Both the position numbers and the translations under genes were made by a program. From a virus, in IMG/VR virus record IMGVR_UViG_3300046028_010596, positions 1-23,450 of that record: a DNA stretch of 23,450 bases. The stretch is one strand, 5' to 3'. Positions within the stretch are counted from its first letter, which is position 1; each line of letters starts with the position of its first letter. This document shows, piece by piece, positions 3,494-23,414 of the stretch. The notes below the pieces were generated by a model that worked only from the letters and a program-made list of their open reading frames with translations, searched no databases and was not told the origin of the DNA.

Positions 3494-3987
3494 AAAAAGG
3501 CTTGTTTTGAAAAATTGGGCACGGCTGGTTTTTGGCTTGTTTAGGGCACGGCTGGTTTTTGGCTTCTTTATATCGTTTCATCACGCTGCTGTTATATGCG
3601 GCTATCGGCTCCGGCCTGCTGTCACACCAGCCCTTTTGTCTGTATCCGTTGCTACATTCTGGCCCTTTGCAAGGTTTCGCAATATTTGCGCCGTTTGCCC
3701 CTGGCCGTGCTAACGGCCCCAGCCCTTTGCTCTTGCTTGTGCCAATCGACGGCCTGGCCTGCCCCAGGGTTGACGCAGGGGCCTGCCATGCGGCACGCGC
3801 GGGCGCGATCGTCTTGCTTTGCTTTGCCACGGGCCTGCAGTCAGCGGCCCCTACCATCGCTGGCCGCCCAAAGCCCCTAGCTAGTGGGCCACCTTTGGCA
3901 CTGGCCCAATTGCCCTGAGCTTTGGCCCTTGTGGTTGGCAATCTGGGGGCCTGGCGCGAGCCAGCCTTTCAACCAACGGACCGAACC
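3494..3987. other. Intergenic stretch with abrupt GC/GGCC increase
   Basis: No convincing gene. The left part holds a 22-nt direct repeat. From about 3590 the sequence becomes rich in GGCC, with more than ten occurrences between 3661 and 3960. Open frames exist on both strands here, but their residues look like translated low-complexity GC sequence. The stretch may contain the promoter for the large gene at 3988. I see no clear -35/-10 pair. Confidence 0.5.
3517..3565 (+). repeat. Tandem 22-nt direct repeat
   Basis: A 22-nt unit beginning GGGCACGGCTGG and ending TTTTTGGCTT occurs at 3517-3538 and again, identical, at 3544-3565, separated by five bases. It lies just after the HNH gene and just before the GC-rich island, so it may mark a recombination or insertion edge. 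Confidence 0.8.
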
Positions 3988-5478
3988 ATGCCCGCAACCA
4001 CTACCCCCGCCGGCCCCATCTCCTACTTGCAAGCCGTAGCCTCTGGCGCGATCAAAGCTCAGGGCCTCAAGCGGCCCACACTGGCAGCCCTGCGCAATGC
4101 CGCTGCTGCCTGCGCAATTGACTGCTGTATTGAAAGCATGCCAAAGGGCTACCGCGTCAGTCAGCACCGTGTGTGGTGCGAGGCTGCGAACCTTGCCGGC
4201 GTGGCAGCCCTGCTGCTGCAAATTCATGAAAAGGCCTGGGCTGTCAAGCCTGCAGCCCCTGCCCCTGTCAGCCCTGCCGAACGCGTGGCTGATGAGATGC
4301 TCGCCGCTTTGGTTGATCTGAGCCGCAAGTGGGAAGCTCAGGCCGCAGTTAGGGCCGCCATCGTGCCCGCTGGCCCTGCTGCCCGCAAGACGGCCCCCGC
4401 CGCAGTGCCCGCCGACGTCAAAGCCCACCTAGCACGCTTTGGCCTGGCTGTTGACGGCTTGCTGACCGTTGGCGCTTCCAATGCAAAGCTGGCAAAGGGC
4501 AAAGCCCTGGCCTGGCCCGTCATTCTCCACCACCTGCCCGCCAAAGCCCTGGCCCAGGCCGTGGCTGGCCCCCAGGCCGGCCCCACGGCCCCACGGTCTC
4601 GGATTGATGGCCTGGCTGAGCTGGCCAAAGCCACTAGCACATACAGCCTGGCTCTGGCCCATAACGGCTGCCCCTGGGCATCTACTGGCTGTGCTGCTGG
4701 CTGCCTGGCCTGGGCCGGCCATGGCGGCATGTCCACCACCGTTGCTGCTGCCCGCGCCCGTCGCACTCTGGCCATGCTGGCCGATGGCCGAACCTACGCC
4801 AGGGCCGTGCTTTGGGCCATCGCCAGGGCCTACCGTCAGGCCCAGGCCAAAGGGCTGCCCCTGGCCGTCAGACTGCGCGGCACAGACGACAGCCCTGTCC
4901 ACCTTTGGCGCTTTGATATCAGCGCAGCAGAGGCCCAAAGCCTGGCCCGCCGTTACGGCCTGCCCGTAGCCCCTGGCCAGGGCATGACACTGCCTGAGGC
5001 CCTGACACTGGCCCCTGCCGGCGCTGTGCACTTTTACGAATACAGCAAAGCCCCTGTAACTGGCCCCCACGGTCTGCAGGCCCAGGCCAGCGCTGGCTTT
5101 GACATCACAGCCTCACTGGCTGCTGACAGGCCCGGCGGCATTGATCAGGCCCTGGCCGCTGTGGCCGCTGGGTTCCGCCTGGCCGTACCTGCCAGCTTTG
5201 CCAAAGGCCAGGCCCTGCCCCCAGCCCTGCTGCTGCAGCCCCGCCAAGGCGGCCCCATCACAATGCTGCGTTGCATTGATGGCGACACTACAGACCATCG
5301 ATGGGCCGACCCTGCAGGCCCCCACGATGGCTTTGATGGCGTGGCTGTGCTGCTGCGCACCAAGCGCAGCAGGGGCAAAGGGCCAGAGGCCGATGCATTC
5401 AGCCTGGCCCCCGTTATTGGCCAATGGCAGCCCCTGGCTGGTGGTGGCTTTGCTTGTTTCTCCATGATGGGAACCTGA
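3988..5478 (+). CDS. GC-rich gene for a DUF7227-like CPxAS-GC-C protein, 496 aa
   Basis: The start is the ATG at 3988 in the local GAACC-ATG context; upstream codons in frame are non-ATG. Residues 1-160 are Ala/Pro-rich and variable. From about residue 160 a conserved core appears: ASNAKL, then CPWASTGCAAGCLAWAGHG (Cys at about 228, 235 and 239), LAVRLRGTDDS (about 293-302), VHFYEYSKAP (about 347-356), a FDITASLA stretch, and IDGDTTDHRWADP near 430. This order recalls a phage/plasmid family of unknown function in which I remember CPFAS-GCA-CL, R-L-x3-D, FYDYTK and GD-x-HDxR motifs, probably Pfam DUF7227. The Cys cluster suggests a metal site. Codon use is extreme (Leu mostly CTG, Ala GCC, Gly GGC, Pro CCC) and unlike the neighbours, a sign of transfer. 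The function is not known. Confidence 0.65.
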   Translation: MPATTTPAGPISYLQAVASGAIKAQGLKRPTLAALRNAAAACAIDCCIESMPKGYRVSQHRVWCEAANLAGVAALLLQIHEKAWAVKPAAPAPVSPAERVADEMLAALVDLSRKWEAQAAVRAAIVPAGPAARKTAPAAVPADVKAHLARFGLAVDGLLTVGASNAKLAKGKALAWPVILHHLPAKALAQAVAGPQAGPTAPRSRIDGLAELAKATSTYSLALAHNGCPWASTGCAAGCLAWAGHGGMSTTVAAARARRTLAMLADGRTYARAVLWAIARAYRQAQAKGLPLAVRLRGTDDSPVHLWRFDISAAEAQSLARRYGLPVAPGQGMTLPEALTLAPAGAVHFYEYSKAPVTGPHGLQAQASAGFDITASLAADRPGGIDQALAAVAAGFRLAVPASFAKGQALPPALLLQPRQGGPITMLRCIDGDTTDHRWADPAGPHDGFDGVAVLLRTKRSRGKGPEADAFSLAPVIGQWQPLAGGGFACFSMMGT

Positions 5479-9525: not shown

Positions 9526-9779
9526 TATAGTTAGTGAGTTCCCGCTCTGCTTTTGCATCGGGCATCACCACCACTGCTGCTCTGTCGGCAGTGTGCAGCC
9601 AGTTCTGAGGTCCACCGTTGGTTGTGGAGTGCCTTTTCTGGCTTGCGTAAAATCCTGCGTTTGCGGGTCGGGAGGACGCTCCCGCCAGGTTGATCCACTG
9701 GTGAGCCCTCGACCCATTTGGCAAGCTTGACGGATCCTCGCCCCTAAGCCTCTCAGCGATGCTCAAACCAGGGGCTGCT
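9526..9779 (+). other. Non-coding stretch with several hairpins
   Basis: No gene supported. Hairpins include CACTGC/GCAGTG near 9572-9593, TCCAC/GTGGA near 9611-9630, and a perfect CGGGAG-GACG-CTCCCG at 9669-9684. Outer arms GGGTCG and CGACCC could enclose the last one. The stretch leads into the tRNA-like structure at 9780, so it may be a leader or the remains of other tRNA-type genes. Confidence 0.4.
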
Positions 9780-9849
9780 GACGGTTAAGTGTTGTGGTAC
9801 ACGTTGGGCAGATAGCCCAGAATGCCAGGTTCGATTCCTGGGGCTGTCC
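9780..9849 (+). tRNA. tRNA-like structure, loop position gives GAT (Ile?), degenerate
   Basis: A 70-nt cloverleaf can be drawn: acceptor GACGGTT with GGCTGTC (three wobble pairs), D stem GTGT/ACAC with a short loop containing GG, anticodon stem TTGGG/CCCAG, variable AATG, and a perfect T arm CCAGG-TTCGATT-CCTGG. The T arm is classic. The anticodon loop CAGATAG would place GAT at 34-36, but position 33 is A instead of the near-universal U, and U8 is missing. CCA is not encoded. It may be a tRNA pseudogene or a tRNA mimic rather than a working tRNA. Confidence 0.45.
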
Positions 9850-11137: not shown

Positions 11138-11223
11138 GATGGTTCCCGATGATGCTGCCCCCGTTCCGTGGCAGCGAGCATGCGCCCCATCGCTGGGGTG
11201 AACGTATCTTCAGCTTAGCATGA

Positions 11224-11772: not shown

Positions 11773-13143
11773 CTAGGAGATTAAGCTTTCGATCCAGCCA
11801 ATATCATCGTCTTTACTTGCAGCAAGAATGGCACCAGCCATTGCAAATGCCAAGTCGTCAATGCCAGTGGCTTTACCACCAGTTACACTCCATTGCCCAC
11901 TTGGTTTATAGACCACCGTTAAGTTCTTAAGCTGCATAATTGCCTTCTCGTGACGATAAATATTGATTTGTCCTGCATTGAAAAGTTCTCGCATTTTGCT
12001 GAAAGCTTTCATTTTTGAACTAACTGTCCAAGTGAGTTCTGTGATGGGCAAATCACTAGCCAAGCTTTGAATGGTGCCAGCACTATTGAACTGGTCCATC
12101 ACAATCGTGTCGAAAACGTATAGGCGATGCTGTTCTTTAATCCAATCTTCCACTGCATTGATATTCACTTCCTTTCTTCCATTGATTTCAAAATCAGCTA
12201 CGAACGAATGGAACTTATCCACGACGAGAGTGCCGTTTTCGTAGTGAACAATACAAGCAGTGTAATCGTCGCGGCCAACGCCACCACGGGCGGGGTCAAG
12301 GGCAAGGACGTAAGCTCCTTGGAATTCAGGGCGTGGTGGCAGTGTTGCACGGCGATCATCAATACAAGCATCAATCACGTCGCTATTCACCAAGGCTGAA
12401 AGATTGCTGGCGAATTGGGCTCCATATTCAACATTAAACTTGTCGGGGTCGCGTTGTCTCTCTGTGTCAAGAAACTCTTGCGAAATATTTGGGTTCATCT
12501 CCCACGTGGGGAGATTCACTGCTTGCATGAAAGGGAATCGTCCTGATGATGCTTCTTTGAAATGCTGGTAGAAAATACCGTCAGTCAACCATGGGGAAGA
12601 AAGTTCAAGGATGCGTCCTTTGCCTCCGAACTGGGCAATGGCGGGAGATAGTGCGTCGTAGATGCCTCTTCCTCCACTATTTGCATCGCCTTCATTGGCA
12701 AATGCAAGTTCGTCAAATACTGCTCCAGCGCAGGCAAGACCACGAGCAGCTCGGCCTGAAGTGGGGATCGCTTTAAACACGCAATTGTTGCTTAGTTCAA
12801 TGATGTCGGCAGTTTCGCGGACAATTTCTTGAGCGAAAGGGCTTTCGATGATTAATTGACGGATGTTGTTGAGAGCGATGCGGGCTTGATCTTGGCTATT
12901 TGCCACTGTTACCACATACCATCGTTCCCCTTTTCTCACCTTACGGCGATATTCTTCTTCTAGGACAAAGCACATATAGAGGCATGCCACTGCAGCCATC
13001 AATGTTTTACCGCTTCTTCGTCCCAGCGCCCATACTGCGTGGGACTTGCCTGGCTGAAAGAATTCATCCAGAATTCGAGCTTGTGCTGGATAGAGTTCTA
13101 AGCCAAGAGCATGCTTAGCGAATTGACTACAAGTAAGGTTCAC
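11773..13143 (-). CDS. terL: Terminase large subunit, 456 aa
   Basis: The ATP-driven DNA packaging motor and headful or cos nuclease. The N-terminal ATPase has Walker A GRRSGKT (41-47), Walker B AVFDE (141-145) and the coupling motif SSP (182-184). The C-terminal RNase H-like nuclease has Asp283 (ALDPARGG), Asp350 (VMDQFNSAG) and the Asp429-Asp430 pair (GIDDLAFAM). Length and order of parts fit a typical TerL. The start is a GTG that overlaps the stop of the upstream nuclease-like gene by 4 nt (GTGA), implying translational coupling. It is transcribed away from the portal gene. I did not find an obvious small terminase in the window. Confidence 0.93.
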   Translation of the reverse strand: MNLTCSQFAKHALGLELYPAQARILDEFFQPGKSHAVWALGRRSGKTLMAAVACLYMCFVLEEEYRRKVRKGERWYVVTVANSQDQARIALNNIRQLIIESPFAQEIVRETADIIELSNNCVFKAIPTSGRAARGLACAGAVFDELAFANEGDANSGGRGIYDALSPAIAQFGGKGRILELSSPWLTDGIFYQHFKEASSGRFPFMQAVNLPTWEMNPNISQEFLDTERQRDPDKFNVEYGAQFASNLSALVNSDVIDACIDDRRATLPPRPEFQGAYVLALDPARGGVGRDDYTACIVHYENGTLVVDKFHSFVADFEINGRKEVNINAVEDWIKEQHRLYVFDTIVMDQFNSAGTIQSLASDLPITELTWTVSSKMKAFSKMRELFNAGQINIYRHEKAIMQLKNLTVVYKPSGQWSVTGGKATGIDDLAFAMAGAILAASKDDDIGWIESLIS

Positions 13144-13711: not shown

Positions 13712-15997
13712 ATGGAAGGCGAAGCGATTGATTTGGGCCATGCCACTGCTGGCGGTATTCGTTCAGACGGCCTCCAAAACGTACTAATTGGCATGGGAAC
13801 TGGCCGCGACAAGGCACAGTACACCAAAACCACTGCTACTGTCTTTCTTGCTCAAGAGGAGCTTGAAAATCTTTACGGCGAATGGCTGCCTCGTCGCATC
13901 GTTGACATCTATGCCGATCAAGCCACTAGGAAAGGCTTTAAAGTGTTGTTCGGTGGCGATGGCGTAAGGGCCGAGGAAGTGCAAGGCATTGAGCAAACGA
14001 TTGAAGACCTCTACATCCTCGAACACCTTAATCTCGCAGCCAAAAACTCCCGCCTTTATGGGGGTGCTTGTCTACTTCTCTTTATTGACGATGGGCGTCC
14101 CGCTTACATGCCTGTCGATAAACGTAACATCCGTCGCATTGAAGAAATTGAATGTCTTGATAGATGGCAAATTGCCCCAGTTATCAACGAAGAAAACTTA
14201 TACGACTATTCAAAAGCCACTTATTATCAGATCATCTCTGGAGATTTAATTAACGAGCCCACGCTCACTTATATTCATAAAGATAGGATTTTACGTTTTG
14301 ATGGTGATTGGCTGCCTTATCGCGTGAGACAGCGTAATTATGGTTGGGGCATGAGCAGTTTGCAAACTGTTTATGACAGCTTCCGTCATTATTGGACGGG
14401 CCTTAATTCTGCTGCAACGCTTCTCACTGAATTTGACATTTTTGTGCATAAAGTGAGGGGCTTAGCTGCGATGCTTGCGGCTGGAAAGGAAAGCTCCATT
14501 CGTGATCGTTTGCAGGTGAATGATATGAGCAAGAGCATTTATCGCGGCTACGCGATTGATGCTGAAAAAGAAGAGCTTGAATTTATTAGTCGGAACTTTG
14601 GCGGCATCGGGGAAATTTTAGAAAAGCTTCGCGTGGATATTATTGGCGCCAGCAAAATTCCTCATACTGTTCTATTTGGCGAAAGCCCTGGCGGCTTGGG
14701 CTCCACTGGTCGCAGTGAAGAGCGTGATTTCGCAAAAACCTTAGCGGATTACCAAGGTACGCATTTTAAGCGTCCTGTCAAGAAGCTAATGGAATACATC
14801 ATGCTTAGCAAAGAAGGCCCAACGAAGGGAGAGCTTCCCGAATCATGGCGCATCTCTTTCAATCCATTGTTCGAGCTTAATGAGCGCGAAATGGCTGACG
14901 TAAGGGCTCGCGTGGCGGCTGTAGATGGCCGTTACATTCAGCTTGGCGTGCTGAGTCCGAAAGAAGTGGCGGACGCTCGTTATGGTGGCTCTGAGTGGAG
15001 CATGGAGCTTACTCTGGATCCATCTGTCATTCGCGAGCTTCCCACTCAAGGCGGGGGTGGCTCCACTCAAAATGGGGGTGGAAATGGAGGCAAGCTTGCT
15101 GTTCCTCCTGGTGGGCGTGATCCAATGAATGAAGAAAATGGCACGCTTCCCATGGATGGAAGCAGGGAAGTGGAAGACAGCCGGGAAGATAGTGCTGCTG
15201 GCCTTTTCTTGCCTCGTGATCTAGAAGAAATTCGTGGTGACGTAAAATTCACCGATGCCGAGCTTCATTCTCGTGCGGTGAGTGCCGCCAAGGCAAAATT
15301 TAAAGTGTGGCCTTCTGCCTATGCAAGTGGCTATGTAGTGCAGCAATACAAGCAAATGTACAAGAAGAAGCACGGATCCCTAGCTGGCGCCTTCAAGAGC
15401 GACGAAGGTGATTTGCACGCAGATGATCTTGACAGATGGTTCAAAGAAAAGTGGGTGAGGATTGGAGCCAATGGTGAAATCCTTGGCCCTTGCGGCGCTC
15501 GCGAAGAAAAGGAAGGCAAGCCTAAATGCCTTCCTCAGGCAAAAGCTCAGGCCATGAGCAAAGAAGAGCGTCAGACAATCGTGCGCCGCAAGCGAGCTGC
15601 AGATCCAGACCCTGAGCGTAAGGGACCGGCAAAAATGGTCAGCAGCAAAACGGACGCCCAAGATCCGAGTATTCACATGTACAAAACGCAACAAGAAGCT
15701 GAGGCCACTGCTGCGAAAATTGGATGCGAAGGCTATCACGTTGAGCAAACTGAAGATGGCCCTGTTTACATGCCCTGCTCAACCCACGCTCTTTTTGAGA
15801 AAAAGCATAAAGAATTTGTATCTCAAAAACAAGATGCGATTGAACCCTTGAAAACCAGCGGACTCATTCTTGCTGATATTGACGAAGCTTCTCTCATTGA
15901 TGAAGAGGACATTTCCGCTGCATTGAATCAATGGAAGGAGGAAGCGCCTGAGCGCTTCAAGGATATTCTGGAGGCAGAGGATGTCCAGCCTCAATGA
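13712..15997 (+). CDS. Portal protein (DUF1073 type) with long C-terminal extension, 761 aa
   Basis: The portal dodecamer forms the DNA entry channel of the head. Residues 1 to about 440 match the DUF1073/phage_portal_3 type: WLPRRIVDIYADQATRKGF, LAAKNSRLYGGACLL, the DRILRFDGDWLP strand, IPHTVLFGESPGGLGSTG, and a terminal portal helix (HFKRPVKKLMEYI). A Gly/Ser/Asn-rich linker follows (about 447-466). The rest is an unusual extension: AKFKVWPSAYASGYVV (about 521-536), DRWFKEKWVRIG (about 573-584), GKPKCLPQAKA (about 603-613), both as in the DUF5872 type of phage domain, and a last module with IGCEGYHVEQ and YMPCSTH. In other phages I recall such modules as separate small proteins. The start ATG 13712 is the first in frame. 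It overlaps the next gene by 17 nt. Confidence 0.88.
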   Translation: MEGEAIDLGHATAGGIRSDGLQNVLIGMGTGRDKAQYTKTTATVFLAQEELENLYGEWLPRRIVDIYADQATRKGFKVLFGGDGVRAEEVQGIEQTIEDLYILEHLNLAAKNSRLYGGACLLLFIDDGRPAYMPVDKRNIRRIEEIECLDRWQIAPVINEENLYDYSKATYYQIISGDLINEPTLTYIHKDRILRFDGDWLPYRVRQRNYGWGMSSLQTVYDSFRHYWTGLNSAATLLTEFDIFVHKVRGLAAMLAAGKESSIRDRLQVNDMSKSIYRGYAIDAEKEELEFISRNFGGIGEILEKLRVDIIGASKIPHTVLFGESPGGLGSTGRSEERDFAKTLADYQGTHFKRPVKKLMEYIMLSKEGPTKGELPESWRISFNPLFELNEREMADVRARVAAVDGRYIQLGVLSPKEVADARYGGSEWSMELTLDPSVIRELPTQGGGGSTQNGGGNGGKLAVPPGGRDPMNEENGTLPMDGSREVEDSREDSAAGLFLPRDLEEIRGDVKFTDAELHSRAVSAAKAKFKVWPSAYASGYVVQQYKQMYKKKHGSLAGAFKSDEGDLHADDLDRWFKEKWVRIGANGEILGPCGAREEKEGKPKCLPQAKAQAMSKEERQTIVRRKRAADPDPERKGPAKMVSSKTDAQDPSIHMYKTQQEAEATAAKIGCEGYHVEQTEDGPVYMPCSTHALFEKKHKEFVSQKQDAIEPLKTSGLILADIDEASLIDEEDISAALNQWKEEAPERFKDILEAEDVQPQ

Positions 15998-16662: not shown

Positions 16663-17385
16663 ATGGACGTTTTAGTTGGCAGCACGGGTCTCATTGGACA
16701 AGTGCTCCGTGAGGCGCATGAGTTTGGCGCCTGCTTCCATTCCAAAAACATTCACGAGGCTCCACTGCTTAAGGAGCCCATTGAAAGGCTGTACTTGGCT
16801 TGCATGCCAGCGGAGAAATGGAAAGCAAACGCTGCGCCACTGGACGACTTTGACAATATGAATAACATCATTCAAAACATCCGACATCTTCCAAGCCCAG
16901 CGGAAGTCATTGTTTATTCAACGATTGACGTGCATGGGCAAACAGCGTATTATGCAGACGGCACGCCTGAAATTTTTGCTATTGACTACGGCACCAATCG
17001 CTACATCTTTGAAATGCTCGTGAAGGCGGTATTCCTTGATTCAGTGGTGACAATCATTCGCCTTCCTGCATTGTTTCATCGCCTTATTAAGAAGAATATT
17101 CTGTTTGATCTATTGACAAACAATAATGTGGAGAAGATCAATGCAAACTCTGCCTATCAATGGTATTGTTTAGATGATCTATGGAAGGACACGAAGAAAG
17201 CAATTAGTGGCACTACGAACGAATTTTACACAGCTCCCATTGAAACAGCGGAAATCGTTGAACGCTTCTTCCCTGACGCGAAAGTAGGCAGTGGACCACG
17301 CATTGAATACAACATTCCTCCATATAAATATGACAAGGCGAAGATAATGAAGAAGATGGAGGCTTTTATCAATGCTTGGAATTAG
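16663..17385 (+). CDS. NAD(P)-binding Rossmann protein, extended SDR/epimerase-like, 240 aa
   Basis: An N-terminal nucleotide-binding loop VLVGSTGLIGQ (Gly6, Gly9, Gly12, the GxTGxxG form) and a VIVYSTIDVHG strand fit the extended SDR fold of sugar-nucleotide epimerases and dehydratases. The catalytic Tyr-x3-Lys appears as Tyr109-x3-Arg113 (DYGTNRYIFE), so lysine is replaced. The protein is shorter than classical epimerases (about 310-340 residues). It starts 1 nt after the head protein stop and overlaps the next gene by 14 nt. In context it probably makes or modifies a nucleotide sugar for the glycosyltransferases downstream; the substrate cannot be deduced. Confidence 0.65.
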   Translation: MDVLVGSTGLIGQVLREAHEFGACFHSKNIHEAPLLKEPIERLYLACMPAEKWKANAAPLDDFDNMNNIIQNIRHLPSPAEVIVYSTIDVHGQTAYYADGTPEIFAIDYGTNRYIFEMLVKAVFLDSVVTIIRLPALFHRLIKKNILFDLLTNNNVEKINANSAYQWYCLDDLWKDTKKAISGTTNEFYTAPIETAEIVERFFPDAKVGSGPRIEYNIPPYKYDKAKIMKKMEAFINAWN

Positions 17386-18112
17386 CGCTATCGGCTGGAA
17401 GGATGAAGAGGAGGAGCAGATTTTAAGCGCAAATGCTGGAGCGTTTAATGTGCTAGAAATTATTCCTGCGCGTATCTTTGCTCAAAACAAAGACTATGCC
17501 GATATTGCCAAAGAATACCGCGAAAGCTATGGGCTATGGGCCTATTCGGCGCAGGCTTTATTCTTTCAAAGTAACGTGCAAAGCTTTGAAGACACTGCAG
17601 CAGTGTCCGAGCATTTGTTAAAAGTGATCAGCCTTGGCTCCCTCATGGGAATCAAGCGCTTCGTACTAGGTAGCCCCGGCTTGAGAAAGGGAAGTCCTTC
17701 CTGTTTGATGAATGTTCTGAAGCGCATGGATGCAGTGTTGGATGCAAATGGAGCCATTCTTTGCATTGAGCCTGTAGCGAAATGCTACGGAGGCTCTTAT
17801 TTCTTCACAGTCAACGAGATTGTCAATCACATTGATTTTTGCAATTTGAAGAATGTTAAGACGATGCTTGACACGAATAACGCTTGGCTTCAAGGCGATA
17901 GCCCTAAAAAGCTACTGAATCATTATTGGCCATACATTGCTCACGTGCATATCAGCGACACTGACAATGGACCGCTGCTAAATAAATACGAGCACAGGCA
18001 AATTAAGGGAATGCTTGATGGTATTAACTACGAGGGCGCGATTGTGCGCGAGCTATTTCAAGCCAAGAAGAATATGCGCGACTATCCGCTGTTCCGCAGC
18101 ATTTACGCTTGA
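17372..18112 (+). CDS. Sugar isomerase/epimerase-like TIM barrel protein, 246 aa
   Basis: The layout fits the xylose-isomerase-like TIM barrel (AP endonuclease 2 superfamily): an N-terminal strand MLGISAIGW, FVLGSPGLRKGS, ILCIEPVAKCYGG, TMLDTNNAWLQGD and IAHVHISDTDNGPL give the expected strand ends with Glu, Asp and His candidates for metal binding (Glu in CIEPV, Asp in LDTNN, His in HVHISD, Glu in VRELF). The length is typical. It overlaps the SDR-like gene upstream, so they form an operon, and it ends tail-to-tail with the minus-strand FAD gene, with the 3' ends overlapping by 10 nt. A sugar-processing role is likely from both fold and neighbours. Confidence 0.65.
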   Translation: MLGISAIGWKDEEEEQILSANAGAFNVLEIIPARIFAQNKDYADIAKEYRESYGLWAYSAQALFFQSNVQSFEDTAAVSEHLLKVISLGSLMGIKRFVLGSPGLRKGSPSCLMNVLKRMDAVLDANGAILCIEPVAKCYGGSYFFTVNEIVNHIDFCNLKNVKTMLDTNNAWLQGDSPKKLLNHYWPYIAHVHISDTDNGPLLNKYEHRQIKGMLDGINYEGAIVRELFQAKKNMRDYPLFRSIYA

Positions 18113-19080
18113 AACATGGCTTCTTTTGCCATCTCTTCGATGGCATAGATGCCTTGAATTTTGCCAGTGTAAAAAGACAGCAGATTATCCTGTTGCCTAA
18201 AAATGGGAACGCGTTGAGCGCTGGCGTTTTTGCATTTTGCTTTAATTGATACCACAAGGAATGCGTATTTAAAATAATCATGAAACTCGGACCAGTAGCG
18301 CACCACGTGATCCTCGATTAGCTGGCGCTTTTCCTTCAGTTGACCATAATTTTTGCTGAAACAATTTGTTTCTTTTTGCTCAATAACGCCAAGCTTCACA
18401 TGACTCAGCGAGAACATTGAAGATCCGTATGGATAGATGGAGAACAGCTCGCCATCAATAAAAGTGAGTGCGCCGAATGGGGGCGTTTTGATGGGACGAT
18501 AAACAAACATTGCCACTGCCTCAAAATAGTCCCCATCAAGAATTGGCAGCAAGGAATTGTTTGTGCAATCAATGACGAAATCATAATCTTGCTTCAAAAA
18601 AGCAAGTGAATTGTCATTGATTTCATCCCTTCTCGCAATGGGAGCCAATAGCTCATCAAAGTAATTGCCAGCGGCAGTTGGAGAAATATATTTCTCAATG
18701 GTATGTAGAAGCAGTGAGGAACGATTAAGGAAGTTCGCATCGGCTTCCGCGTGTGGCCAATCTTTAAAAATAAGGCGAATCGTTTCTGCGTCCAACAAGC
18801 TTTCGTCTTCTGACACTGCATAGAAATTATTCTGCACGTTTTCCGTTAGATGGCCATAGTCCATCATGAACTGTTCAAACGTATTCCTGCACAACATGCG
18901 CGTGGCATGATTCCTGGCGTAGTGATAGCCATAGTGCAATCGGTTCTGATTGATTAACGATGCTTCGGAGATGAGCATTTCATTGCGCTCAAACAAAGTC
19001 ACATCGGCTTTGTTCATCAAGCGTGAAGCTAAATGGCACCCCGTCCAGCCGCCACCGACGATTGCAATCTTAAGCGCCAT
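18103..19080 (-). CDS. FAD-dependent oxidoreductase-like protein, 325 aa
   Basis: The ATG at 19080 is chosen over the TTG just upstream. The N-terminus KIAIVGGGWTGCHLASRL is a dinucleotide-binding motif (GxGxxG), followed by VTLFERNE at the end of the second strand, as in DAO-type flavoproteins. SLINQNRLHYGYHYARN matches the NQ-x-RLH-x-GYHY motif that I recall from FAD oxidoreductases in surface-glycan clusters. A second strand DFVIDCTN lies in the middle. The reaction is unknown; oxidation or ring contraction of a sugar is possible from context. Its start overlaps the stop of the upstream glycosyltransferase-like gene by 1 nt (TGATG), giving a two-gene minus-strand operon. Confidence 0.65.
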   Translation of the reverse strand: MALKIAIVGGGWTGCHLASRLMNKADVTLFERNEMLISEASLINQNRLHYGYHYARNHATRMLCRNTFEQFMMDYGHLTENVQNNFYAVSEDESLLDAETIRLIFKDWPHAEADANFLNRSSLLLHTIEKYISPTAAGNYFDELLAPIARRDEINDNSLAFLKQDYDFVIDCTNNSLLPILDGDYFEAVAMFVYRPIKTPPFGALTFIDGELFSIYPYGSSMFSLSHVKLGVIEQKETNCFSKNYGQLKEKRQLIEDHVVRYWSEFHDYFKYAFLVVSIKAKCKNASAQRVPIFRQQDNLLSFYTGKIQGIYAIEEMAKEAMFQA

Positions 19081-19769
19081 CAAATGTCAATACAAAGCGT
19101 TGGCTGCACTCCTTGCCAATTTGACTTGGCCTTGAATAAGTCCAACTGTGGGAAGTATTCTATGCGGCGAGGCATGCCGGTTCCATAGACATCAGCATGC
19201 CCTTGATAGTTCCATTCATCTGGGCCATGCTTGTTTGGGTGGTAAAGGCCAGTAGGTGAATCCTGCAGTTTCCAGAGCATGTAGTCCTCGTTAGGCACTC
19301 CCCATTGTTTCCATGCTTGCAACGCCTGTGGTGAGCTGTCCATGTTCTTAATCGCCATGAGACGGTCCTTATGGTGCATGAGGTAGTCCATGCTGTAAAG
19401 GCCAATGCTCATTGATGGTGTATGTTTCATCGCCACCTTCTCAAAACCTTCTGGAGGGTCGTAGGCAAGGCTTTTGAAGGCAGGCCCAGCAATGCAAGTG
19501 TCGTGAAGGAGAAACCAGAAGGGGCTTGTCAGATGGTGTTCAACAATTTCAATGAGGGGCGTATATTCAAATGAATTCTGAGGAGTGCAAATCATCGGCA
19601 CATCTCCATAGTAATCAATGCGCCAATCTTCTTGTCCACCATTGACAATCAAAATTTCGTTGGCGCCAATCCCAGCGCGAGTTAGGGAAGGGATAATTAC
19701 AGGCAGCGTATGAACAGCAAATTTATTACAGGTGCTAATGCAGAAGCGCACAGAAGACGGTGGCAACAT
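19080..19769 (-). CDS. Glycosyltransferase-like protein (GT-A type?), 229 aa
   Basis: The N-terminus FCISTCNKFAVHTLPVIIPS and GANEILIVNGGQ resemble the first strands of GT-A glycosyltransferases. WFLLHDTC at about 85-92 could be the nucleotide-sugar metal site, but there is no clear DxD. Later segments (YSMDYLMHHKD, PNEDYMLWK) look like acceptor-side helices. The start ATG 19769 is clear. It lies head-to-head with the GT4 gene and directly upstream of the FAD oxidoreductase gene on the same strand. The family is not certain, and the context of three other glycosyltransferase-like genes is a large part of the call. Confidence 0.5.
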   Translation of the reverse strand: MLPPSSVRFCISTCNKFAVHTLPVIIPSLTRAGIGANEILIVNGGQEDWRIDYYGDVPMICTPQNSFEYTPLIEIVEHHLTSPFWFLLHDTCIAGPAFKSLAYDPPEGFEKVAMKHTPSMSIGLYSMDYLMHHKDRLMAIKNMDSSPQALQAWKQWGVPNEDYMLWKLQDSPTGLYHPNKHGPDEWNYQGHADVYGTGMPRRIEYFPQLDLFKAKSNWQGVQPTLCIDI

Positions 19770-19831
19770 GACTTTCTCCTTGTGCCGTCAGTATAGAAGC
19801 TGCTTATGATGACGAAGATTCCAAGAGAAAC
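19770..19831. promoter_or_regulatory. Divergent intergenic region inside the sugar cluster
   Basis: A 62-nt gap separates the leftward glycosyltransferase-like/FAD pair from the rightward GT4 operon, so it probably holds both start signals. AGAAAC precedes the GT4 ATG and no Shine-Dalgarno is seen there, while the minus-strand gene has AAGGAG about 5 nt before its ATG. I see no clear promoter boxes. Confidence 0.35.
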
Positions 19832-21055
19832 ATGGCAAAAATTCTCTACGCTGGCGACGCATTTGTAGAAACGGGATTTGGGCGAGTGGCCCAATACCTG
19901 TTACCTGCTCTGGATGAGAAGCATGAAGTGGTGGTGATGAGCACGAACTACCACGGTGACCCTCATCCCGAGGCGAAGAAATATAAGGTGTATCCAGCCA
20001 TGCTGCATGGATCCGATCCGTTTGGGTCGCATCGCATTTCTGAAATCATTCAGAAGGAAAAACCTGATCTGGTATGGGTGACAAATGATATTTGGGTGGC
20101 GCTTACTTTATGGGACAGGGCGAAGCCATTCAAGGAGCAAATTGGGTTTAAATGGTTTGTTTACACTCCCATTGATTCCTATGGTTTATTTCCTGAGTTA
20201 AACGCGAAGATGCAAGAATGGGATGGTCTCGCCACCTATACGCTATTCGCAAATAACGAATTAATTCGCATGGGTTATGACAAGACAGTTGACATCATCG
20301 GCCACGGCACTGATTTTGAAAAATTCTTTCCACTTGACAAGCAGCAATGTCGTCAAGAACTTGGCGTGCCGCAAGACGCATTTATCGTCTTCAACGGCAA
20401 CAGGAATCAACCGAGAAAGCGCATTGACCTTACGCTGAAAGCTTTTGTTAAGTTCGCCAAAGATAAAGACGACGCTCGCCTGTGGTTAAACATGGGCAGC
20501 AAAGACTTGGGATGGGACATTATTCCGTTGTTCAAGCGAATTGCTCGCGACGAGGAGCTTGATCCTACTGGCAAGCTTATTCTTACTAGTCCTCATTTTT
20601 CCACTGATAATTGTTTGCCAGTGGAGCAACTGAACAAAGTATACAATGCGGTTGATGTGGGCATCAATACTTGCATTGGTGAGGGTTGGGGCTTGGTCAA
20701 TACTGAACATGGCTCCGTTGGCGTGGCGCAAGTTGTTCCCGACCATACAAGCTTGGCTGAAATTTTTGACGAACTGCCACGCATTACTTGCAACGCTTCT
20801 GAAACCGACAGGAATTATGGCCTTGAGCGCCTACTTCCTGATCCTGATAGTGCCGCAGAAATCTTGTCGTATTACTACGAAAATCGCGATGCACTGAAAA
20901 AAGATGGGCAATGGTGCTACAAGCGTTTGCATGAAGAGCCATTCACTTGGCCGTATATTCAGCGGCAGTTGCTTGGCGTGGTAGAACGCACTCTCAATGC
21001 AAAGGCCGCTGAGCCCGAATTTAAAGGCTTTGGCACTCCCGCAAAAATTGTTTGA
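19832..21055 (+). CDS. Glycosyltransferase family 4 (GT-B fold), 407 aa
   Basis: Transfers a sugar from a nucleotide donor with retention. The N-terminal domain has AFVETGFGRVAQYLLPAL (about 10-27) and LVWVTNDIW. The hinge leads to the donor domain with FNGNRNQPRKRIDLTLKAF (187-205, the usual N-x-x-x-R-K-x-x-x-x-L motif) and the E-x7-E signature at Glu284/Glu292 (EGWGLVNTE). The length is normal for the family. The acceptor and sugar cannot be read from sequence. It heads a rightward operon with two further glycosyltransferase-like genes: the next ATG is 2 nt after its stop. Confidence 0.85.
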   Translation: MAKILYAGDAFVETGFGRVAQYLLPALDEKHEVVVMSTNYHGDPHPEAKKYKVYPAMLHGSDPFGSHRISEIIQKEKPDLVWVTNDIWVALTLWDRAKPFKEQIGFKWFVYTPIDSYGLFPELNAKMQEWDGLATYTLFANNELIRMGYDKTVDIIGHGTDFEKFFPLDKQQCRQELGVPQDAFIVFNGNRNQPRKRIDLTLKAFVKFAKDKDDARLWLNMGSKDLGWDIIPLFKRIARDEELDPTGKLILTSPHFSTDNCLPVEQLNKVYNAVDVGINTCIGEGWGLVNTEHGSVGVAQVVPDHTSLAEIFDELPRITCNASETDRNYGLERLLPDPDSAAEILSYYYENRDALKKDGQWCYKRLHEEPFTWPYIQRQLLGVVERTLNAKAAEPEFKGFGTPAKIV

Positions 21056-21057
21056 TC

Positions 21058-21774
21058 ATGCAAATTTCACAAATCTTCCTTTCAACTGATCCGTCAGAAG
21101 CGCTTAGCCCTTTCCTGAAACACGCTACGGGAACTATTGACGCATGCTTTCCCGAGGCGAAGCATGTTATTTACAACAGCGACTCACTTCGCGCCTTCAT
21201 TGCTGATAACTATGAAGAAGAAGTGTTGTGGGCTTACGACACGCTCAAACCGTTTTCTTACAAAGCAGATCTTGGTCGTTTCTGCTTGCTAAACAAGCTT
21301 GGTGGCTGGTATTTTGATATTGGCGTGAGGGCTTTTAATGCAGTGGAGCTTGGTGATCGCATCAAGTTTCTTGCCTTCCGCGACATTCAGCGTTTTAGCT
21401 ACACAAGCTGGGCGTGTGCCACAACAGTGCTTTATTCTCAGCCCGATAATCCTGCGTTGCAAACTGCCATTGAAATGATTGTGGCAAATTGCGTGCAACA
21501 ATACTATGGCATCACTCCATTGTGCCCTACTGGCCCCACGCTGCTTGGTAAAGCTTTGGCAGCGAATGGAAGCCAAACTGATTTTGTTTATGGAGACTAT
21601 CTTGAGCTGACGCCCACTCACGGCCAAAAGAATAGGGCTTTCGTTCTGCCTGATGGCACGATCATGGCATGGAGTAAGCCTGCTGGCGGTGGCGATTTGA
21701 CGGGACTTGGCGCTAAAGGCGTCAACAATTACAATGAGCTGTGGCAAGCTCGCAAGGTGTATGGCGATGATTGA
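21058..21774 (+). CDS. GT32-like glycosyltransferase (DXD-type sugar binding), 238 aa
   Basis: The ATG at 21058 (GATC-ATG) is used rather than the TTG at 21052. The core KADLGRFCLLNKLGGWYFD (69-87) is the hallmark of the GT32/Gly_transf_sug type, where YK-(A/S)D-x2-R-x7-GG-x-Y-x-D binds the nucleotide sugar. The residue two after the aspartate is Gly89 rather than Asp, so the DxD is incomplete. CPTGPTLLGKAL (156-167) supplies the TGP motif. It overlaps the next gene by 8 nt and follows the GT4 gene by 2 nt, so the three are cotranslated. Transfer of a hexose to a glycan on the virion or host is plausible. Confidence 0.75.
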   Translation: MQISQIFLSTDPSEALSPFLKHATGTIDACFPEAKHVIYNSDSLRAFIADNYEEEVLWAYDTLKPFSYKADLGRFCLLNKLGGWYFDIGVRAFNAVELGDRIKFLAFRDIQRFSYTSWACATTVLYSQPDNPALQTAIEMIVANCVQQYYGITPLCPTGPTLLGKALAANGSQTDFVYGDYLELTPTHGQKNRAFVLPDGTIMAWSKPAGGGDLTGLGAKGVNNYNELWQARKVYGDD

Positions 21775-22477
21775 TAGCACAATCTATGCGGTTTGCATTG
21801 CTGGCGAGAAAGTGCGTTACACGGCCAAGTCTCGCATTGTGCCAATCATGGGGGGAAGTTATGCGTTAACTGACGACGAGCGCGAAAAATTGCGCTTAGA
21901 AGGCTATGTTTTCGACGACGAAAATGCTTTTCTTTCTGGGCTAAATAGTCGCTGTGGCGAACTGTCTTGCGTGCATTGGATGATTCGCAATGCCAATGAA
22001 AGCAATATTGGCAATGCCCAGTATCGGCGCAATTGGATAGAGCCACAAGGTGAATGGTATTGCCCAGAAACGCTTTACTTGCCTGAGCCTGCTCAATTTT
22101 CTTGTACTCTTGAGCAACAATTTTATGGAGGACATTCTGCTTTTGATGCACCAGCGATCACGCGAGAATTGGCCGACACAAAAGAATGGCTGTTTTCTCG
22201 GGAAGAAATAGATCAGATATGGGCGCAGTCTTCATTTATTGGCTGCAACATGGCGCGTGGCCCACGGCAAAGTTATAAGCAGTTTATGGGAATTCTGCTT
22301 TCGGCATTGGGACCAATTTGGCTTAAGCATAAGGAGCATTTTCGTTCCATTAATGGTTATGACAAGCGTGCAATTGCTTTTATTGCAGAACGCTTGATTA
22401 CTGGCATGGTTTTATGCAGGGATAGGATTTTGCCAGGCGTTAAGATAGCCACGGCTCCGATAGGATTTATTAATTAA
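21767..22477 (+). CDS. DUF4422-type glycosyltransferase, 236 aa
   Basis: The ATG at 21767 lies in the end of the previous gene and is preferred to the earlier in-frame codon at 21707. Motifs GELSCVHWMIRN (64-75) and NIGNAQYRRNW (80-90) correspond to the DUF4422 pattern in which E-(L/M)-(T/S)-x2-Y/HW-x-W/IRN is followed by G-x2-HYRR. A Cys/Asn-rich C-terminal half (SSFIGCNMARGP) completes it. DUF4422 proteins are putative glycosyltransferases found in capsule and O-antigen clusters. It ends the rightward sugar operon; 18 nt later begins the small virion-type gene block. Confidence 0.75.
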   Translation: MIDSTIYAVCIAGEKVRYTAKSRIVPIMGGSYALTDDEREKLRLEGYVFDDENAFLSGLNSRCGELSCVHWMIRNANESNIGNAQYRRNWIEPQGEWYCPETLYLPEPAQFSCTLEQQFYGGHSAFDAPAITRELADTKEWLFSREEIDQIWAQSSFIGCNMARGPRQSYKQFMGILLSALGPIWLKHKEHFRSINGYDKRAIAFIAERLITGMVLCRDRILPGVKIATAPIGFIN

Positions 22478-22495: not shown

Positions 22496-22759
22496 ATGAC
22501 TACAAAAGAAAAGCAAGCAAAAATTGCTCGTGTTCTTCGCGAATTTAAAGCTGGCACTCTTAAGGGTAGTGGCGGTGAGAAAATTAAAGACAGAAAGCGT
22601 GCAATTGCCATTGCTCTTTCAGAAGCTGGTATGAGTCGTCAAGGTAAGAGCGATGCCTATTGGGACAATTATTTCATGACTCTTATTGGCGAAGAGGAAG
22701 AAGAAGAGGAAGAGGGCATGGAAGAAATGGAGGACGGTTCCTGCGGAAAAAAGCGCTGA
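22496..22759 (+). CDS. DUF6496-like small protein, 87 aa (zero-frame product)
   Basis: The ATG at 22496 (AATC-ATG) is used, not the upstream TTG. Residues 1 to about 60 match the DUF6496 layout: KIARVLREFKAGTLKGSGG, a KDRKRAIAIALSEAGMS core and a short helix. Then comes an acidic linker (EEEEEEEE followed by GMEEMED) and SCGKKR. The gene ends at a TGA 4 nt past the slippery heptamer A AAA AAG (22747-22753). The acidic linker leads straight into the domain encoded in the -1 frame, so the 87-aa form may be only the short product of a two-product gene. DUF6496 proteins are common in phages; their role is not known. Confidence 0.8.
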   Translation: MTTKEKQAKIARVLREFKAGTLKGSGGEKIKDRKRAIAIALSEAGMSRQGKSDAYWDNYFMTLIGEEEEEEEEGMEEMEDGSCGKKR

Positions 22760-22786
22760 GGGGTGACGCCGAAAGCTTTGCCCCTC
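22729..22786 (+). promoter_or_regulatory. Probable programmed -1 ribosomal frameshift signal
   Basis: Three elements are in the dnaX-like order. GGAGG at 22729-22733 is a Shine-Dalgarno-like stimulator 13 nt before the slip site. A AAA AAG at 22747-22753 is in the correct zero-frame phase (codons AAA AAG after GGA). After a 4-nt spacer, GAGGGG at 22758-22763 pairs with CCCCTC at 22781-22786 to give a 6-bp GC stem. Slippage by -1 joins codon 86 of the DUF6496 gene to GCG at 22753 and gives a 203-residue fusion. Confidence 0.7.
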
Positions 22787-23106
22787 CTGCCGCTGTAAGA
22801 GCCGCTGCTCGCCGTGGCTTAGAACTACGCAAGAAACATGGCAAGGGAGGCTTGACGACGCAGGAAGCGGGCAAGCAAGGCATTGGAAGCGGCGTTGCTC
22901 GTGCGACAAGCCTGGCCAATGGCGAGAAGGTGAGCTATGAGACCATTAAACGCATGGCCGCATTTTTCTCAAGGCATGCCAAGAACAAAAGTGGCGGAGA
23001 GGATGATGCTGGTTATATCAGCCATAATTTATGGGGCGGCGATGCTGGTAGGGCGTGGGCAAATCGCATCATTAAGATGGTAGAGAATCGCAGAAAAGAC
23101 CAATGA
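22753..23106 (+). CDS. Downstream domain of the frameshift fusion (-1 frame), 117 aa
   Basis: The conserved part reads FAPPAAVRAAARRGLELRKK, GGLTTQEAGKQGIGSGVARA, NGEKVSYETIKRMAAFFSRH and ISHNLWGGDAGRAWANRI. This F-x-PP, GLE, GIGSGVARA, RM-x-(A/S)FF-x-RH, LWGGD-x-GR-x-WA series is a common phage domain of unknown function. Between the slip site and the FAPP motif there is no ATG, GTG or TTG in this frame (only CTG), and the first TTG falls inside the conserved GGLTT stretch. Expression therefore most probably comes from -1 frameshifting on the preceding gene, giving a protein of 86 + 117 residues. Its stop overlaps the next ATG by 4 nt. Confidence 0.75.
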   Translation, partial: ALRGDAESFAPPAAVRAAARRGLELRKKHGKGGLTTQEAGKQGIGSGVARATSLANGEKVSYETIKRMAAFFSRHAKNKSGGEDDAGYISHNLWGGDAGRAWANRIIKMVENRRKDQ

Positions 23107-23414
23107 GCGAATACGTGCGTGTTATCGAAGAAGAAGACGAAGGCATTGGTCTTTTAAAGGCTCTCTCTATTCTTTCCGCTAACGAGCATCGCAACACTTC
23201 ACGATGGGAACTAGTGGAGAAGCAGTGCTTTAAAAATGGACGACTAGATGAAACGCACATCTATGTAATGAGCGTTTACGAAAAGCCCGACCCTCATTTT
23301 GAACCGACAAAGTTTTTGACGTTTGAAATTGAGGCAATGGCAAAGTCCTACATTATGGAAGACATTGAAAATCAACTTGCCAGCATTCGCGGCGAAGACG
23401 ATGATGAGGACTGA
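23103..23414 (+). CDS. Hypothetical acidic protein, 103 aa
   Basis: It begins at the ATG that overlaps the preceding stop (ATGA). The product is acidic: MSEYVRVIEEEDEGIGLLKA at the N-terminus, a beta-rich centre (THIYVMSVYEKPDPHFEPTK), then FLTFEIEAMAKSYIMEDIEN and an all-acidic end. No family recognised. Its coupling to the frameshift gene suggests cotranslation. The remaining 36 nt of the window hold no gene. Confidence 0.6.
   Translation: MSEYVRVIEEEDEGIGLLKALSILSANEHRNTSRWELVEKQCFKNGRLDETHIYVMSVYEKPDPHFEPTKFLTFEIEAMAKSYIMEDIENQLASIRGEDDDED

Follow-up and report, generated by a model that had tools for sequence, protein, structure and literature searches.

Organization of the Locus

Towards the 3′ end of the window, as the whole 23,450-nucleotide stretch of viral DNA analysed is called here, a short gene with a DUF6496 domain overlaps an open −1 frame that encodes a second domain, and a putative frameshift signal lies where the two meet. 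The elements of the locus are the following:

22496..22759, + strand: zero-frame ORF, 87-aa short product
residues 4–44 of the zero-frame ORF: DUF6496 domain (PF20106, E 4.5e-8)
22729..22733, + strand: SD-like GGAGG, located 13 nt before the heptamer
22747..22753, + strand: slippery heptamer A_AAA_AAG, in the zero-frame phase
22757..22759, + strand: TGA stop of the zero frame, the second codon past the heptamer
22753..23106, + strand: continuation in the −1 frame with stop TGA at 23104–23106; 203-aa protein when joined to the first part
22758..22786, + strand: putative downstream stimulatory stem of 9 bp + 2 bp after a 4-nt spacer, predicted and with covariation
22762..23103, + strand: second domain, 114 aa, of a head-associated family
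23103..23414, + strand: next gene, 103 aa, no assigned function, with start/stop overlap ATGA

The match of the first part to PF20106 scores 33.8 bits, above the curated cut-off of 24. Behind this domain the zero-frame ORF encodes a helix with the motif SDAYWDNYF and then an acidic linker, and its 3′ end reads ...TCC TGC GGA AAA AAG CGC TGA. According to the ORF reading of the window, the open stretch of the −1 frame runs from 22660 to 23106 and contains no ATG. The initial annotation had interpreted this arrangement as a programmed −1 frameshift, and the elements on which it relied are in place: A_AAA_AAG stands in the correct phase at 22747–22753, GGAGG lies 13 nt before it and a GC stem 4 nt after it, products of 87 and 203 aa are obtained by reading both frames, and the second domain has no start codon of its own. 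The assignment of the first part to DUF6496 also holds, but the gene is a head-region gene and not a stray DUF6496 gene. Likewise, the acidic linker, presented as suited to connecting domains, is found in the window but is not a general trait, being basic in some relatives, including the Synechococcus phage S-CBS4.

The window alone is not decisive, because the heptamer occurs in it at chance frequency (the string AAAAAAG is seen 8 times versus 10 expected, and is thus not rare) and the stem is only moderately better than shuffles. The arms of this stem (GAGGGGUGA.GC/GC.UUGCCCCUC) fold at 22758–22786 with a minimum free energy of −16.2 kcal/mol and a z of −2.05, and the wider 96-nt stretch reaches a z of −1.13, so that in the window sequence the stem is suggestive only. 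The weight of A_AAA_AAG lies in its phase, position and conservation, and not in the rarity of the string.

Conservation and Exchange of the Slippery Heptamer

Relatives were collected by protein searches of IMG/VR and phage isolates, which yielded 145 distinct sequences with both halves, carried by aquatic phages that probably infect cyanobacteria. Their second domains share 75–93% amino acid identity and fall into 88 clusters when grouped at 90% identity, and therefore the survey is not one sequence repeated many times. The second half is found in the −1 frame in 113 of the 145, in the same frame in 31 and in the +1 frame in one, L238 (1993–2590), where a single-base deletion in a GGAAAAAA run, either a mutation or an assembly error, has displaced the halves. 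Every one of the 113 sequences with the −1 arrangement carries a canonical in-phase XXXYYYZ heptamer at the junction, namely A_AAA_AAG (78), G_GGA_AAG (20) or C_CCA_AAG (15); the background of in-phase heptamers elsewhere in the same ORFs is 0.34% of codon positions. The spacing is equally constant, with 8 nt from the heptamer to the second domain in 111 of the 113 and 6 nt from the heptamer to the end of the zero-frame stop in 106, and in none of them is the second domain preceded by an ATG of its own. The initial annotation had suggested comparing both halves with related phages, and this comparison finds the slip site kept in 113 sequences and a single ORF in 31. Homologues whose second domain has its own start and lacks a slip site, which it had named as counter-evidence, amount to 0 of the 113, the rest of the survey being the 31 fusions and L238. 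The relatives therefore render it very likely that the junction is the site of a programmed −1 frameshift.

A DNA scan of IMG/VR was also carried out, in which AAAG, the stop and the stem region were fixed and the three preceding bases were left free. Among the matches listed, the free triplet was AAA in 77, GGG in 34 and CCC in 8, homotrimers in 119 of 119; the contigs overlap partly with those of the protein survey, but the triplet itself was not selected for.

On a gene tree built from the second domain, with the junction left out, about 17 switches of heptamer were reconstructed, in each case from one slippery type to another, and about 8 changes between frameshift and fusion were counted, 5 of them forced by supported branches; these counts are approximate, because the tree rests on 300 nt only and phages recombine. 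The replacement of one slippery heptamer by another is what selection for tandem tRNA slippage would predict, and the fact that A, G and C triplets take each other's place speaks against both transcriptional slippage and sequencing error.

The single-ORF fusions of both halves comprise 31 distinct sequences, and these natural in-frame fusions demonstrate, at the level of the coding sequence, the joined product. As the fused form is viable, the ratio of two products is not strictly needed in the group. One of the fusions, L275 (2501–3148), has the junction AGA AAA AAA GTA, as would result from the insertion of one A into an A6G site. The DUF6496 domain, on the other hand, was not found in six contigs (L077, L082, L178, L179, L181 and L184), in which an ORF of about 25 aa with the SDAYWD helix ends in G_GGA_AAG plus stem; since both are kept without DUF6496, the junction has survived the loss of the first domain. 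The gene that precedes this mini-ORF in L178 is methyltransferase-like, as judged by eye.

The Downstream Stem and the SD-like Element

RNAalifold returned no consensus structure for the 87-row alignment, probably due to dilution by the slip site, the coding bias and a stem-less group, and the stem was then counted directly. On 87 distinct sites its pairing is preserved in 85.9% of cells, versus 47–64% for slid versions, and 44 double changes are observed versus 21 in shuffles. The clearest covarying pair, 18–34 of alignment A1, appears as A-U in 32, C-G in 28 and U-G in 15, and in L116 a double change falls within the GC core of the stem. Comparison of the relatives thus establishes the signal and the selection that acts on it, together with the natural fusions. 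The stem energy is −14.7 kcal/mol in frameshift genes versus −7.8 kcal/mol in single-ORF fusions, a difference that is not significant when independent pairs on well-supported branches are taken (5 pairs, median p 0.25). The stem is missing in a small set with C_CCA_AAG (L162, L163, L170, L173 and L211), and therefore would act as an enhancer and not as a requirement. As for the SD-like GGAGG, it is present at −13 in 15 distinct A6G relatives in all and missing in 20 others. Given its absence in many relatives, it was dropped as a conserved part of the signal, and it probably either arises incidentally from the Glu-rich linker or serves as an optional enhancer.

Head-region Context and the Second Domain

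In S-CBS4 the homologue corresponds to gp018/gp019, annotated as two hypothetical proteins, and is followed by the 103-aa gene, an HTH gene on the opposite strand, the head maturation protease (DUF2213; phrog_530), the cement protein and the MCP. The same gene order is found in contig L006, whose junction is identical to that of the window. The 103-aa gene follows every copy checked, and DUF2213 lies 0.6–1.5 kb downstream in 126 of the 126 loci that are long enough, in frameshift and fused forms alike. On the upstream side of the window, a cargo-like block at 16663–22477 (isomerase-like, FAD oxidoreductase, glycosyltransferases and DUF4422) extends from a minor head gene to the frameshift gene, a place where the cargo of S-CBS4 is different.

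The second domain has no Pfam match, and its structure model is all-helical (pLDDT 89, pTM 0.81). Neither Foldseek against the PDB, for which both the fused model and the isolated second domain served as queries, nor a sequence search of solved structures gave anything significant, but comparison with viral structure models returned matches named prohead protease, XkdF and portal. The domain forms the N-terminus of the XkdF protease of Limnohabitans phage DC31; S-CBS1 and Roseobacter phages have it at the N-terminus of large capsid proteins, and in Vibrio phages it begins the gene that precedes a coil protein and the MCP. It is also part of a halovirus prohead protease and of a halovirus protein whose annotation is head morphogenesis, and it ends a MuF-like protein in a MAG contig (MuF by eye). 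One scan of host genomes recovered two MAG contigs with distant relatives in a phage-like context, and no prophage of this kind.

Because protease, cement and MCP genes lie downstream, and because the fusion partners of the domain include prohead proteases, portals and MuF-like proteins, a role of the long product in head assembly, and not in tails, appears reasonably likely. It has also to be considered that the long product is made by frameshifting and acts elsewhere, for example in DNA binding or host take-over, in which case its gene would sit in the head region only as a passenger. The cargo-like sugar and glycosyltransferase genes just upstream (16.6–22.5 kb), the HTH regulator gene between the frameshift gene and the protease, and a DUF6496 domain without known function would all agree with this. 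However, such a role is unlikely, although it deserves to be taken seriously, given that the second domain recurs fused to prohead protease, portal, MuF-like and capsid polyproteins in unrelated phages and haloviruses.

Proposed Mechanism and Alternative Explanations

As the mechanism we propose programmed −1 ribosomal frameshifting by tandem slippage, to which we give a probability of roughly 0.9 on the basis of the sequence comparison. Ribosomes on the DUF6496 gene would arrive at A_AAA_AAG and be slowed by the stem, located 4 nt on and thus just past the entry channel, while the tRNA(Lys) in the P and A sites would re-pair one base back. A fraction of the ribosomes, at a slip rate that we infer like the slipping in the cell itself, would in this way bypass the TGA and read into the 114-aa second domain, so that one message with a single start would provide an 87-aa short and a 203-aa long protein. 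The short product, which lacks the head domain, may occupy positions that the long one also takes and thereby set the dose of the latter; this dose-setting step is only a guess, because in 31 relatives the fused form apparently suffices.

Slippage of the polymerase on the A run during transcription, by which mRNAs would gain or lose A residues and so encode the fused protein, is very improbable. A6G is indeed the majority site (78 of 113), but A6 is short for RNA polymerase slippage, and it is repeatedly substituted by G_GGA_AAG and C_CCA_AAG, which serve tandem tRNA slippage and not polymerase slippage; moreover, the covarying stem is placed at ribosomal spacing. A similarly small chance is left to separate translation of the second domain, by re-initiation or from a GTG, TTG or CTG start. 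The domain starts right after the first stop, and GenBank gives S-CBS4 gp019 its own start inside the domain, but this annotated start (locus position 12345) drops the first 11 conserved residues. Among the 113 relatives no ATG is found, 75 are without any ATG, GTG or TTG before the domain, and a TTG at −21 is present in only 16, while the constant slippery heptamer and the natural fusions would be left unexplained. Finally, the possibility raised by the initial annotation that resequencing would reveal seven A residues, the gene being really a plain fusion disrupted by a sequencing or assembly error, is hardly credible: in-frame fusions do exist in relatives and L275 has A7, but the window and six more IMG/VR contigs have the identical junction with six A, 35 relatives have the −1 arrangement with G_GGA_AAG or C_CCA_AAG and no six-base run to miscount, the isolate S-CBS4 has the same arrangement, and the −1 frame outnumbers the +1 frame by 113 to 1.

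Comparison with Known Frameshift Genes

The frameshift signal of E. coli dnaX is composed of an A_AAA_AAG heptamer, an upstream SD-like element and a downstream stem, and the window contains the same three elements, the stem lying just downstream in both. The likeness to dnaX that had been claimed stands for the heptamer and the stem, and not for the SD-like element, which is not conserved in relatives, where the heptamer types also alternate. In addition, slipping yields the shorter product in dnaX, whereas in this phage gene it would yield the longer one.

The frameshift of the lambda G/GT tail assembly chaperone was reportedly described by Xu et al. 2004. As far as the consulted sections of a 2016 review extend, the phage uses of frameshifting are tail chaperones and capsid extensions (PMC5009743). 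With the tail chaperone frameshift of lambda G/GT, as treated in those sections (PMC5009743), the locus would share one start with two products, a −1 slip shortly before the first ORF ends and XXXYYYZ heptamers; unlike the chaperone genes, the DUF6496 gene lies in the head region, upstream of the protease and MCP, and has no homology to them. The identity of a tail chaperone was accordingly rejected, since the gene precedes the protease, cement and MCP genes, and the start of the S-CBS4 tape measure gene follows only after about 7 kb. Directly before that tape measure gene, S-CBS4 has an unannotated −1 overlap (L002 19317–19452) with A_AAA_AAA at L002 19404–19410, which is likely a tail-chaperone frameshift missed in the record. 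The head-region site would then be a second candidate frameshift in this genome, beside the candidate tail-chaperone site.

The capsid frameshifts of T7/T3 gene 10, Lactobacillus phage A2 and Listeria A118/A500, as covered in the same sections (PMC5009743), are similar in that a head gene is affected and a minority product receives an extra C-terminal domain. Here, by contrast, the gene is not the MCP and the extension is not Ig-like, the domain added being helical and protease-/portal-associated. The closest parallel is S-CBS4 itself, whose gp018/gp019 are direct homologues, 75% identical across the part that matches, with the junction AGA AAA AAG GGC TAA GGGGCG...CGCCCC; they differ in being annotated as two separate proteins, the second of them truncated at its start.

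Frameshifting is a well-known mechanism, and as far as the searches reach the gene is new to it: the main text of the PRFect study mentions no cyanophage (PMC10885494), and a literature search of sources outside subscription journals and preprints found no paper naming DUF6496 or with this frameshift. On balance, we lean towards a third, previously unannotated class of phage frameshift genes beside tail chaperones and capsid extensions, a dose switch for a head-assembly factor with a protease/portal-associated domain, which would have been exchanged several times with a plain fusion. A new family would thus join the short list of phage genes with programmed frameshifting, the annotation of S-CBS4 gp018/gp019 and related contigs would be corrected, and a nameless domain gains a head-assembly context. 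Close relatives that differ in heptamer type, and in frameshift versus fusion, constitute a natural experiment, and therefore why phages retain frameshifting over fusion is directly testable.

Other Features of the Window

Two RNA elements adjoin tRNA genes. At 9740–9776 (+) an abiF RNA (Rfam RF03085, 45.5 bits) lies directly 5′ of tRNA-Ile (9780–9849), and at 11152–11207 (−) a Glutamine-II riboswitch (Rfam RF01704, 44.6 bits) adjoins tRNA-Leu and is followed by a 39-aa ORF (MNPLALIKQQLEKAARLREAQHASLVYRGIAYVPKPHWF) and then a terminator-like hairpin. A 518-aa ORF at 3922–5478 (+), in a stretch with about 67% GC versus about 48% elsewhere, gives a partial match to GP88 (PF17338, E 1.3e-9). The portal protein, encoded at 13712–15997 (+), has an unusual C-terminal extension with DUF5872 and DUF3721.
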